NCBI GenBank assembly: GCA_027028145.1
Contig: JALVJV010000019.1
Span: 124,001-188,000 of the forward strand
Source of the DNA: Archaeoglobaceae archaeon
Lineage (GTDB): Archaea > Halobacteriota > Archaeoglobi > Archaeoglobales > Archaeoglobaceae
Direction: 5' to 3'
Length of the DNA: 64,000 nt
The position numbers and the translations under genes were made by a program. The first letter of the stretch is position 1, and every line of letters begins with the position of its first letter. The notes under the pieces are model-generated. The model did no database searches, was not told where the DNA came from, and saw only the letters and a program-made list of their open reading frames with translations. Shown here piece after piece: positions 36,329-40,593 of this stretch.

Positions 36329-36859
36329 CTACGCTTGGGAAATCAGAACCTCGGAAACCTTCTTCGCCAATCTGTCGAAGGCGTAACCGACTACGAAAGA
36401 TATGGCTATCAGGACAACCGCCGTGAACGGAGACAAACTTACCCCCTTAAAGAACACGAAGGCGAACCAGTTTATGAGAACGCAGGAAACTATACCGAAT
36501 CCACCGTTCAAAACTTCTGTTAGAAATCCCATCGCTAAGAAGGATAGGAATCCGAAGATTCCGAAGTAGTAGGGGGTTGTTACTCCATACCAAGGCTCGC
36601 TTATCAGTAGAAATGAGACGGTCAGGGCTGATACGATCACACCCCTCCACTTACCGAATACCTCTTTGGCGAGCGAAATCCAGAATACGTAAATCACACC
36701 ACCGAACAGAGCAAGTCCCAAGCATGGAGCTTCGATACCCAAAACCTTCCTAACGCTACCGCTCGGAATTAGATACGAAAGCATGTAGCCTAAGAAGGCA
36801 AGGGAGATTATTCCGACGAGTTCGTAGATCTCACCATGGGCATCTCTTGCAGACTTCAT
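36329..36859 (-). CDS. Membrane protein of the MCAP/radical SAM operon
   Basis: The 176-residue protein has about five or six hydrophobic helices (first at residues 13-32, last at about 143-160) and few charged residues between them. I recognise no family. Its start lies inside the last 29 bases of the radical SAM gene, so translation is coupled and it is the fourth gene of the operon. A role in export, immunity or as membrane platform for the peptides is inferred from position only. ECF-type substrate-binding membrane subunits have a similar size, but no motif supports that. Confidence 0.7.
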   Translation of the reverse strand: MKSARDAHGEIYELVGIISLAFLGYMLSYLIPSGSVRKVLGIEAPCLGLALFGGVIYVFWISLAKEVFGKWRGVIVSALTVSFLLISEPWYGVTTPYYFGIFGFLSFLAMGFLTEVLNGGFGIVSCVLINWFAFVFFKGVSLSPFTAVVLIAISFVVGYAFDRLAKKVSEVLISQA

Positions 36860-37619
36860 CCCTCCTCATCCCTTTCATGAACATCAAATGCTCCTCAAAG
36901 CTCAGAGCTTTGTAGAACCTTCCCATCTCGTATTGGAAGCAACACGGACTCGCTCTTAAGTCGTATCCCAAGAATATACATGATAGAACGACCGCACAAG
37001 GTCTCGTTTGCTTCGGCGGTGTGTAAACCTTTATTCCGAACTCCTTGCCGATTTCCTTGGCAACCTTGCAAGCCTTTTTAACATCGCTTTTGGAAAGGGG
37101 CTTTAGCTTTTCGTTGTGCATGTAGAACAGCTTGTGAAGAACGACATCTATCCCGTTCTCGCCGGCGAATCTTACTATTTCCTTTACGTCCTCCAAGTTC
37201 CACGGCAGAATCGTTATATCTATGTAAGTTTCAATTCCGTCGTTTAAACGGACGAACTTCCTTATATTCTCAAAGACCTTCTCCTTACCCTTCACCGTGT
37301 AGATTCCAAAGGCTATCGAATCCAATTCGCTTTTCAGGAGTTCGTCCATCCTCTCCTCCAAAAGAGTCCCGTTGGTTATCAGGCTCGTCTTTACCCCCTT
37401 CTCGCTTGCGATGTTTATCATCTCGAAAAGCTTCGGATGTAGAAACGGCTCCCCCCATCCGTGAAACGAGACCTCTTTAAACTTCTCTAAGGGTATTTTT
37501 AGAAAGTCCTCCATCGATATGTAGCCTACTTCTCTCGAACTCGTCGATCTCATGCAGATAAAACAGTTCTGATTGCAGTCGTTCGTGACCTCCAATTGGA
37601 GAATTTTGGGTCTTAACAT
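36831..37619 (-). CDS. Radical SAM enzyme with C-terminal auxiliary cysteines
   Basis: The 262-residue protein has the radical SAM cluster motif CNQNCFIC (Cys15, Cys19, Cys22), then HGWGEPFLHPKLF (the GxGEP-like SAM site) and SLITNGTLL. The C-terminal quarter holds Cys208, Cys214, Cys226, Cys227, Cys257 and Cys260, a short SPASM/twitch-like set for one auxiliary Fe-S cluster. Many SPASM enzymes modify ribosomally made peptides. Two tiny MCAP peptides are encoded immediately upstream (six bases away) and a membrane protein overlaps downstream. Peptide modification is inferred. Confidence 0.88.
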   Translation of the reverse strand: MLRPKILQLEVTNDCNQNCFICMRSTSSREVGYISMEDFLKIPLEKFKEVSFHGWGEPFLHPKLFEMINIASEKGVKTSLITNGTLLEERMDELLKSELDSIAFGIYTVKGKEKVFENIRKFVRLNDGIETYIDITILPWNLEDVKEIVRFAGENGIDVVLHKLFYMHNEKLKPLSKSDVKKACKVAKEIGKEFGIKVYTPPKQTRPCAVVLSCIFLGYDLRASPCCFQYEMGRFYKALSFEEHLMFMKGMRRDEVCKRCPW

Positions 37620-37625
37620 AAAAAA

Positions 37626-37772
37626 TTAGAAGAATTTTGCGATTTTCACTATCTTATAGCCGACGAAGGCGAGTATTGTAACGGCGGCTAAGACTTGGTT
37701 CAGCATTAGGCTCGTCGCAAATGCCAGCGAGCTAACGCTTCCTCCAACCGTTGCGGAAATTGGGGCGCACAT
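37626..37772 (-). CDS. MCAP peptide 2 (48-residue small membrane peptide)
   Basis: The ATG at 37772 follows a GAGGTGA ribosome site and comes one base after the stop of the upstream peptide gene. The product starts MCAPISATVGGSVSSLAF, has one membrane helix (about residues 24-40) and ends YKIVKIAKFF, a basic tail. The first six residues match the upstream peptide (MCAPVS). The positive C terminus predicts N-terminus-outside topology, exposing Cys2. It lies six bases before the radical SAM gene. I know of no described family. Confidence 0.72.
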   Translation of the reverse strand: MCAPISATVGGSVSSLAFATSLMLNQVLAAVTILAFVGYKIVKIAKFF

Positions 37773-37773
37773 C

Positions 37774-37911
37774 TCACTCACCTCTTGCAAATGCTCCCTT
37801 CAAAACCAAAGCGACACCAGAGATTCCCGTTATCAAAGCCAAGACCAAGGCGGGTAGTATTCCTGCGAGAGACAACGTTGGTGCCATGGAAACGGATACC
37901 GGTGCACACAT
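37774..37911 (-). CDS. MCAP peptide 1 (45-residue small membrane peptide)
   Basis: From the ATG at 37911 the product starts MCAPVSVSMAPTLSLAG, has a hydrophobic helix at about residues 16-37 and ends LKGAFARGE. The frame is open 31 codons further upstream, but a strong TATA box 27 bases before this ATG and the shared MCAP start with the next gene fix it. It is the first gene of a four-gene operon (peptide, peptide, radical SAM, membrane protein). The conserved N terminus rather than a conserved core is unusual for a modified-peptide precursor. Confidence 0.68.
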   Translation of the reverse strand: MCAPVSVSMAPTLSLAGILPALVLALITGISGVALVLKGAFARGE

Positions 37912-37929
37912 GAAGTTTGATTCAACGGG

Positions 37930-37945
37930 AAAGTATATAAAATTT
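37930..37945 (-). promoter_or_regulatory. TATA promoter of the MCAP operon
   Basis: On the minus strand AAATTTTATATACTTT is a strong TATA box centred about 27 bases before the ATG at 37911, so the transcript is leaderless or nearly so. There is no second good promoter before the radical SAM gene, which supports a single operon. The 37912-38127 gap otherwise holds only A+T-rich sequence. Confidence 0.6.
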
Positions 37946-38127
37946 GCTGATAGCCTTAGTAACATCGGAATACAAGTTGACGTTATTTTTGAAAATAATA
38001 GCATTACTCATAGTATCGGTATTAAAAAATTTAAAAAATTGTTCGGAAATACGGTTCGAAATGCTAAAAAATTGTGAAATTATCGTTTAATTTGCTACGA
38101 TATTACCCTTCTGATGCTACGCTCGTG

Positions 38128-39618: not shown

Positions 39619-40593
39619 TTATAATTTTGGATTTAAATTTTTAATACTATACAAAGTTAAAATTTCTACACCGTATTGCCTCTCTACCTCTCTTCTCACG
39701 GCTTCTATCTTGTCCCTCGCATCGGCGTGAACCATAAAGTATATCGGGAACTTCCAGCTTTCGGGCACTTCCCTCTCAACCAAATGGGTTATCTGCGGAA
39801 AATCGTTTACCAGCTTCAGAGCCAATTTTTCGGCTTCCTCGGGCTCGATCCGAATCATATTCATACCGTTCTCCCCGAATCCTATTTTGCTCTCCCTCAA
39901 AACTCCGCTGAAGTCCCTAACGACTCCCTTCTCGATTAGCTCCGCTATCAGATCGACCAACTCGGATACCTTATAGCCGTATCTCTCCGCGATCTCCTTG
40001 AACGGTTTCTCCTCTATCGGCAATTTCCTCTCGAGTTCGAAAAGCATCTTCGCCGGAATTCCAAGCTCCTCAACCTTCGGAACTTCGTCCCTTTCCAATC
40101 CCTTTTCGCTCCACGAGATGCCTTTGAACAGATCGTATTTCACGTCCATCTTGTAAACCCTCTTGCTCGGCAGGAATAGGTAGTCCTCAACTCCGCATCT
40201 CCTTGCAATCTCTTCAACCTTATTCAGCAGTTCTTCCTTATCCCTGCCCTTGAACGTGAACCAAATCTTGTATCTCTCATGATCCCTCAGAAAGTTGTGC
40301 TTCAAACTCATGCTGTCGATAGATTCGTTGATAATTTTTGCAATCTTCGGAACTTCGTCATCTCTGCAGGCGAAAGCTACGAGAACTGCCTTTCCTATCC
40401 GCTTGAAAGCTTTGTAGTTAAGATTCGCCCCAATTCGTTTGATGATACCCTTTTGCTTGAACTCCCTGAGCTTAGCCATTACATCCTCAGCTTTTAAACC
40501 CAAATTCTCGGCTAAATCAACGAATGGTTGCTCGGTCAGCGGAAGCTCGTATTGAACACCCATAAGAATGCGTTTCTCCGAATCGCTGAACAT
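39619..40593 (-). CDS. ahbAB: Fused siroheme decarboxylase AhbA-AhbB
   Basis: The 324-residue protein contains two successive AsnC/Lrp-like modules. Module one (about 1-165) has GIIKRIGANLNYKAFKRIGK and ends near FKGISWSEKGL, as in AhbA/NirD-type proteins. Module two (about 175-324) has the winged helix FKEIAERYGYKVSELVDLIA, GVVRDFSGVL and the ESWKFPIYFMVHA strand. The two subunits that normally form a heterodimer are thus joined. The enzyme turns siroheme into didecarboxysiroheme in the archaeal heme route. The SirC-like gene lies nine bases upstream, supporting the call. Confidence 0.88.
   Translation of the reverse strand: MFSDSEKRILMGVQYELPLTEQPFVDLAENLGLKAEDVMAKLREFKQKGIIKRIGANLNYKAFKRIGKAVLVAFACRDDEVPKIAKIINESIDSMSLKHNFLRDHERYKIWFTFKGRDKEELLNKVEEIARRCGVEDYLFLPSKRVYKMDVKYDLFKGISWSEKGLERDEVPKVEELGIPAKMLFELERKLPIEEKPFKEIAERYGYKVSELVDLIAELIEKGVVRDFSGVLRESKIGFGENGMNMIRIEPEEAEKLALKLVNDFPQITHLVEREVPESWKFPIYFMVHADARDKIEAVRREVERQYGVEILTLYSIKNLNPKL

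Follow-up and report, generated by a model that had tools for sequence, protein, structure and literature searches.

A conserved cassette of small Met-Cys-x-Pro peptides, a radical SAM enzyme, and a predicted S-component-like membrane protein in archaea and bacteria

The MCAP operon and its peptides

The window analyzed here, a stretch of 64,000 nucleotides from an Archaeoglobaceae archaeon (contig JALVJV010000019.1), carries a compact cassette on its reverse strand (Table 1). Two tandem genes for peptides that begin with MCAP are separated by a single base, and six bases separate the second of them from the gene for a radical SAM (rSAM) enzyme, the 3' end of which overlaps the gene for a membrane protein by 29 nt. 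A TATA element, TTTTATATA, ends ∼22 to 24 nt 5' of MCAP1, and because of this distance the MCAP1 transcript is probably leaderless or nearly so. A preliminary description of the locus, which was made from the sequence alone, had reported the two tandem genes of 45 and 48 codons, their spacing, the TATA box, the radical SAM enzyme, and the overlapping membrane protein; all of these held, and the TATA element was also present in four relatives. A siroheme synthase-like gene and a fused AhbA-AhbB gene lie on the 5' side of the cassette, and fumarase-like genes lie on the 3' side. In the fused gene (window positions 39619-40593, minus strand), both siroheme decarboxylase subunits are encoded in one frame, and both matched their NCBIfam equivalogs above the cut-off.

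Table 1. Positions of the cassette features in the window and of longer proteins that carry a related N terminus at other loci
Feature	Position	Strand	Remarks
MCAP1, 45-codon peptide gene	37774..37911	-	MCAPVSVSMAPTLSLAGILPALVLALITGISGVALVLKGAFARGE; MCAPVS N terminus; dN/dS, hydropathy
MCAP2, 48-codon paralogue of MCAP1	37626..37772	-	MCAPISATVGGSVSSLAFATSLMLNQVLAAVTILAFVGYKIVKIAKFF; MCAPIS N terminus, hydrophobic helix
Radical SAM enzyme gene, putatively twitch type, 262 aa	36831..37619	-	
Six-helix membrane protein gene, 176 aa	36329..36859	-	ECF S-component fold (predicted)
Membrane-anchored TPR protein gene, 449 aa	38128..39477	-	Recurring partner
TATA-like promoter element 5' of MCAP1	37930..37948	-	AAATTTTATATACTTT; kept in four relatives
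MCVPIS-TPR proteins	L112:6809-7993; L095:3786 onward		
MCGP[IV]VYPPVITS proteins	L166:4542-6161; L167:3036-4766		Beside rSAM gene

When the window was compared with related genomes by the Nei-Gojobori method, considering only comparisons with unsaturated dS, dN/dS was 0.02-0.18 for MCAP1 and 0-0.16 for MCAP2. Both are therefore translated genes under strong purifying selection, and the synonymous-substitution bias by which the preliminary description had proposed to check the two frames was strong in each.

Hydropathy analysis placed one hydrophobic helix at about residues 18-36 of MCAP1, the C terminus of which contains K38 and R43, and the helix of MCAP2 is followed by a tail with K40, K43, and K46. 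Among 87 distinct peptides (45-76 aa; median, 53) recovered from the loci described below, conservation was confined to residues 1-9, with a variable remainder that includes the membrane helix. The N-terminal motif is best described as Met-Cys-x-Pro-(V/I)-(S/A/T)-(V); position 7, which was not imposed by the search pattern, was Val in 74 of the 87. There is no organization into a leader followed by a core, so that this criterion for a ribosomally synthesized and posttranslationally modified peptide (RiPP) is not met, and the preliminary claim that the N terminus is the conserved part held. In almost all of the 87 peptides there is nearly no charge in the first 20 residues and a net positive charge in the last 15, for which the positive-inside rule predicts an N-out/C-in orientation, an inference from sequence only. 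The peptides matched no known family in Pfam or NCBIfam, and the plasmid collection yielded no match.

Two variations were observed among the peptides. An extra Cys pair (such as GCTGIC) was present in 16 of 18 bacterial peptides versus 0 of 75 archaeal peptides (loci L079, L082, L088, L097-L103, L107, and L109). In Archaeoglobaceae and Thermoproteota, a second peptide type beginning MCTPVYVTVK is encoded by genes that run opposite to the MCAP-rSAM operon (L059:7504-7656, minus strand; L065:7492-7635, minus strand; L093; L061; and relatives).

Distribution and genomic neighbors of the cassette

When 84,980 GTDB species were scanned with the alignment of the rSAM enzyme, 70 loci were recovered. 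One of them, L113, belongs to the isolate Methanoculleus chikugoensis and encodes a peptide of the MCIP type. The archaeal loci were from Archaeoglobales, Methanococci, Methanosarcinales, Methanophagales (ANME-1), Thermoproteota, Thermoplasmata, Altiarchaeota, Bathyarchaeota, Hecatellales, and Hadesarchaea, and the bacterial loci were from Desulfobacterota/deltaproteobacteria, Chloroflexota, Bacillota, Actinomycetota, and Latescibacterota. These names are the labels of metagenome-assembled genomes, and misbinning is probable for some of them; one and the same sequence appears under two names as L053 and L054. Identical or similar cassettes at L053, L054, and L056 are labeled Micrarchaeota, Baldrarchaeota, and Archaeoglobi and are likely to represent misbinned contigs.

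An MC-x-P frame of 40-80 aa on the same strand, no more than 700 nt upstream of the rSAM gene, was found at 61 of the 70 loci, versus an expectation of 0.0098 per stretch from the identical search of remote regions of the same contigs. This linkage, together with the low dN/dS, rejects the possibility that the MCAP frames are chance open reading frames. The nine exceptions comprise two loci with MC-x-P copies downstream of the rSAM gene (L067 and L073), two with variant motifs (MCTA at L077 and MCTT at L106), two in which the motif is fused to a TPR protein (L095 and L112), one on a contig that stops shortly after the rSAM gene (L066), and two remote rSAM homologues (L114 and L115). The ANME-1 loci L067 and L073 also contain repeated, alternating pairs of TPR and peptide genes.

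Within the order, an rSAM orthologue with 41-100% identity was detected in 11 of 57 genomes, with an MCAP frame just upstream in all 11. Ten of the 57 genomes, all of them rSAM carriers, also encode the membrane protein, and the contig of the eleventh rSAM genome ends at that point. Within the phylum, the peptide profile (A3) matched 35 of 393 genomes, including all 32 with the rSAM gene (E < 1e-60), and both peptide and rSAM were absent from 358 (Fisher p = 6e-44, ignoring phylogeny). Two of the three genomes with a peptide match and no rSAM (G160 and G314) are fragmented assemblies with a credible peptide, and the match in the third (G029) is a spurious 313-aa frame. The profile search also showed that there can be up to seven peptides per rSAM gene in one genome. 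Thus, the genes for the peptide, the rSAM enzyme, and the S-component-like membrane protein are conserved as a linked unit and inherited together, and there is little doubt that the conserved system is real. MC-x-P frames, which the preliminary description had expected as MCAP frames beside orthologous rSAM genes, were present there in nearly every related genome and far beyond Archaeoglobales.

In the rSAM tree, the 16 bacterial sequences formed one group (support, 99/98) beside ANME-1-type sequences, with a midpoint root only. If the root lies elsewhere, it is possible that this group reflects a single transfer between partners in the same sediments.

The MCxP N terminus also occurs on other proteins (Table 1). 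TPR proteins in two Clostridia start with MCVPIS and appear soluble, without a membrane helix, and neither locus showed a separate peptide gene in the vicinity of the rSAM gene. In another archaeal family of the same phylum, proteins of 539 and 576 aa that start with MCGP[IV]VYPP adjoin the rSAM gene in a complete genome, and their start codon is fixed by a stop codon immediately 5'. These proteins look Ig-like by eye, have no obvious signal peptide, and are preceded by an abutting P-loop-like gene. Retention of the motif on the TPR and the 539-576 aa proteins supports the MCxP N terminus as a recognized unit. The preliminary description had predicted that Cys2 faces outside; this fits the positive-inside prediction for the peptides but cannot be general, because neither a signal nor a helix is obvious at the N terminus of the TPR fusions or the MCGP protein.

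The groups of neighboring genes that recurred over the 70 loci encode the membrane protein (49/70), FmdE-domain proteins, which are mostly exported (38/70), TPR proteins (27/70), ABC ATPases (13/70), and DUF4198 proteins (6/70). Near neighbors include DUF4198, ABC-3, TonB, CbiM, FecCD, FUR, and ExbB, none of which appeared in the top list of the far-neighbor control. In two ANME-1 loci (L084 and L076), CfbC-like, CfbA, and CfbB genes precede the cassette and a DUF4198-CbiM-NikL-like-CbiQ-CbiO series follows it, with CfbE thereafter in L076; CfbA, CfbB, and the CfbE of L076 each scored above the NCBIfam cut-off where scanned. HypC-HypA genes are directly upstream of the cassette at L050, with HypB close by, and CbiM, CbiQ, and ABC ATPase genes are directly downstream at L048. 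CbiQ/CbiO-type genes adjoin the cassette only at L048, L076, and L084. Bacterial loci also contain TonB receptors, ExbB, Fur, and ZnuABC, and Zn-type and Fe-type transport genes occur at L095, L112, and L109.

The association with nickel/cobalt genes is strong at L084/L076, L050, and L048 and absent from most loci. The nickel link consequently rests on few independent events, because metal genes occur at a minority of loci and L084 and L076 are close relatives. The neighborhood in the window consists of siroheme/heme genes and fumarase, not nickel genes. A metal role, which was absent from the preliminary description, has good support at a few loci and no general proof.

No exported FmdE-domain partner was detected in the window genome at the search threshold used, which rejects the FmdE-domain protein as a core component there, and of the genomes of the order that carry the cassette, about half lack FmdE. 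No protease and no dedicated peptide exporter recur beside the cassette. In one Archaeoglobaceae genome (G041; L176/L177), an exported FmdE-domain gene is broken by stops and the MCAP cassette is intact.

The radical SAM enzyme and the membrane protein

The SAM-cluster motif CX3CX2C (C15, C19, and C22) was conserved in 55 of 55 rSAM homologues, as were C208, C226, and C257, and C260 was conserved in 54 of 55. C214 and C227 were not conserved; the claim of six C-terminal auxiliary-type cysteines therefore held only in part, for four of them. The spacing C208-x17-C226...C257-x2-C260 aligns with the four ligands of BtrN, in which four cysteines ligate the cluster and which performs a two-electron oxidation (PMC9012708, PMC6231123). 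The alignment suggests a twitch-type enzyme in which these four residues ligate a single auxiliary cluster, although the cluster itself has not been observed. This refines the earlier suggestion of a SPASM-type enzyme. A full SPASM enzyme with two auxiliary clusters was rejected, as there are only four conserved C-terminal cysteines versus the seven-Cys motif, and there was no match to the SPASM model of Pfam.

The rSAM domain begins at residue 6 of the 262 aa, no other domain was found, and there is no space for an N-terminal extension the size of a RiPP recognition element (RRE), an element that is common but not universal in rSAM-dependent RiPP systems. The AlphaFold2 (AF2) model (pLDDT 96) was closest in Foldseek searches to BlsE, SkfB, SuiB, and PqqE, and its structural neighbors include the RiPP maturases SkfB, SuiB, PqqE, CteB, and EpeE. 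The best PDB matches of the twitch profile were anSME and BtrN. BtrN is of similar length; however, it oxidizes a small aminocyclitol, and its sequence match to the cassette enzyme is weak and limited to short regions. The closest NCBIfam family was TIGR04317 (tungsten cofactor oxidoreductase rSAM maturase), which matched over most of the rSAM length with scores (88-127 bits across six members) far below its cut-off of 380, and the cassette enzyme is shorter. Known tetrapyrrole rSAM families also scored far below cut-off, with AhbD at most ∼64 bits of 500. The chemistry of the enzyme cannot be predicted from its twitch type, because the authors of the SkfB study noted that twitch or SPASM type does not track function.

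The AF2 model of the membrane protein (37 sequences; pLDDT 92) has six long helices, and its best meaningful matches in the PDB were the ECF S components YkoE (5edl; probability 1.00, TM 0.63) and ThiT (3rlb; probability 0.99, TM 0.59), with weak Foldseek E-values (0.17-0.3). The preliminary assignment of a membrane protein thus held and is refined to a predicted ECF S-component fold. Sequence searches of Pfam and NCBIfam assigned the protein to no known family. None of its Cys, His, or Met residues is invariant, and Trp residues are conserved. An apparent second motif, the SA..V.G N terminus of the archaeal membrane proteins, was rejected because it overprints the conserved rSAM C terminus EVCKRCPW.

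Proposed function, alternatives, and relation to known systems

The linkage of peptide and rSAM genes supports the preliminary proposal that the peptides are the rSAM substrate, which remains an inference: it is likely, and no modified peptide has been seen. Given that they are the substrate, modification at the MCxP N terminus is the probable outcome, although its chemistry too is inferred. In the proposed mechanism, the twitch-type enzyme would act, an inference with good support, on the MCxP N terminus before it leaves the cytoplasm, and the reaction is probably a two-electron oxidation or a cross-link in which Cys2 takes part. This reaction is proposed because an auxiliary cluster of the BtrN kind, with all its ligands in place, would be an electron acceptor rather than a substrate holder. 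The peptide would then insert N-out/C-in, with moderate support, and present its modified Cys-containing N terminus outside as a metal hook. The mature peptide may bind nickel, cobalt, or a similar metal and serve the S-component-like protein as CbiN serves CbiM, and FmdE-domain and TPR proteins would act outside the cytoplasm, as binding and scaffold partners.

The evidence for a role in metal handling, an inference, is evenly balanced, and the more specific assignment to nickel or cobalt must be considered tentative, with doubt slightly outweighing support. There are no biochemical data, and the full scheme of a matured, membrane-anchored Ni/Co-type metal hook serving an S-component partner falls a little short of being probable. 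The membrane protein has conserved tryptophans that would suit an organic ligand, and these, as well as its lack of any invariant Cys, His, or Met, count against a metal role.

One alternative is that the MCxP N terminus is the precursor of a small diffusible molecule, a redox cofactor or metallophore, in the way that PQQ derives from PqqA and mycofactocin from MftA; the rSAM enzyme would form the molecule, a protease would release it, and the S-component-like protein would import or sense it. An S-component fold with conserved tryptophans suits an organic ligand, the enzyme is structurally akin to PqqE, and there can be several peptide copies per genome. However, no protease recurs in the neighborhood, nearly all members retain the helix and basic tail, and TPR and 539-576 aa proteins carry the motif as well, the last two points indicating a modified protein rather than a released fragment. 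This alternative seems unlikely.

It also seems unlikely that the rSAM enzyme acts on a tetrapyrrole or other small substrate (F430 or a siroheme or heme derivative) with the MCxP peptide as an accessory membrane subunit. The cassette adjoins F430 genes in ANME-1 and siroheme synthase-like and siroheme decarboxylase genes in the window, and the methylthiotransferase first proposed for 17(2)-methylthio-F430 acts on tRNA (PMC10702137), leaving that step unassigned. However, the enzyme scores far below cut-off against known tetrapyrrole rSAM families, the cassette is widespread at loci without F430 genes, and up to seven peptides per rSAM gene fits a substrate better than a subunit.

A third possibility is that the peptides belong, as small membrane subunits, to a larger respiratory or transport complex and that the rSAM enzyme acts on another partner, such as the FmdE-domain protein. 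FmdE-domain proteins do occur at 38 of the 70 loci, and single-helix subunits are common in membrane complexes, but peptide and rSAM persist where FmdE is absent (the window genome and about half of the carriers in the order) or broken (G041), so that this reading is doubtful as well. Least likely of all is that Cys2 becomes formylglycine, a conversion that anaerobic sulfatase-maturating enzymes carry out at C-x-P-x-R, giving an aldehyde-bearing membrane peptide: the Cys-x-Pro core and the twitch-profile matches to anSME and BtrN favor it, but there is no Arg two residues after the Pro and no second auxiliary cluster, and Asp277 of anSME (the residue after Cys276, which is the catalytic Asp) aligns with position 227, which is Cys, Val, Thr, or Pro, a missing Asp that weakens anSME-type chemistry.

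Like the cassette, RiPP systems such as SkfB/SkfA, PqqE/PqqA, and MftC/MftA have a small ribosomal peptide encoded beside a twitch/SPASM-type rSAM enzyme. The cassette differs from these in its conserved N terminus in place of a leader and variable core, its C-terminal membrane helix, its lack of an RRE-sized domain, recurrent protease, or dedicated exporter, and the transferability of its motif to other proteins. The CbiMN/NikMN Ni-Co ECF transporters likewise combine an S-component fold with a small membrane partner, CbiN serving CbiM (PMC7689651), and CbiM adjoins the cassette at three loci. However, no sequence relation was found between the cassette membrane protein and CbiM, the cassette has an rSAM enzyme, and CbiN has two helices versus one in the MCxP peptide.

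The N terminus of CbiM/NikM (MHIP) is a metal site. In NiSOD (HCDLPC), nickel is bound through His1, Cys2, and Cys6 (PMC5722923), and the N-terminal Cys2 of HypC (MCLAIP) coordinates metal. NiSOD and HypC thus share with MCxP a Cys2 near a Pro at the N terminus; in contrast, they are soluble, have no rSAM enzyme, and are not homologous to the peptides. The NiSOD, HypC, and NikM sites are functional analogies only and do not imply membership.

The preliminary description knew of no system like this one, and none was found: no Pfam or NCBIfam family describes the cassette, and neither such a cassette nor a combination of FmdE, radical SAM, and TPR proteins was found in the open-access PMC full text searched. 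Pairs of rSAM enzymes and peptides are already known; the inverted layout, transferable N-terminal tag, S-component partner, and missing family model make the cassette a distant case.

A bolder form of the metal-hook reading, which is no more than possible, is that the rSAM enzyme recognizes a transferable N-terminal Met-Cys-x-Pro tag and rebuilds it into a nickel-binding group, displayed on single-helix membrane peptides, TPR proteins, or other proteins beside an S-component-like partner, in an undescribed system that spans both domains. If the pairing is functional, there is a class of rSAM substrates whose recognition depends on an N-terminal tag instead of a leader peptide. This class would extend over many archaeal and several bacterial lineages from anoxic sediments and vents, ANME-1 and sulfate reducers among them. 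The cassette would offer a testable entry to nickel acquisition and handling, and ANME-1 need much nickel for methyl-coenzyme M reductase. It also illustrates how a conserved system can be marked by two very small genes that Pfam and NCBIfam miss.

A DsbD_2-type membrane protein encoded near the cassette at two loci (L109:15575-16246 and L096:14969-15733) contains an internal CAPVVS that resembles MCAPVS, possibly by chance.
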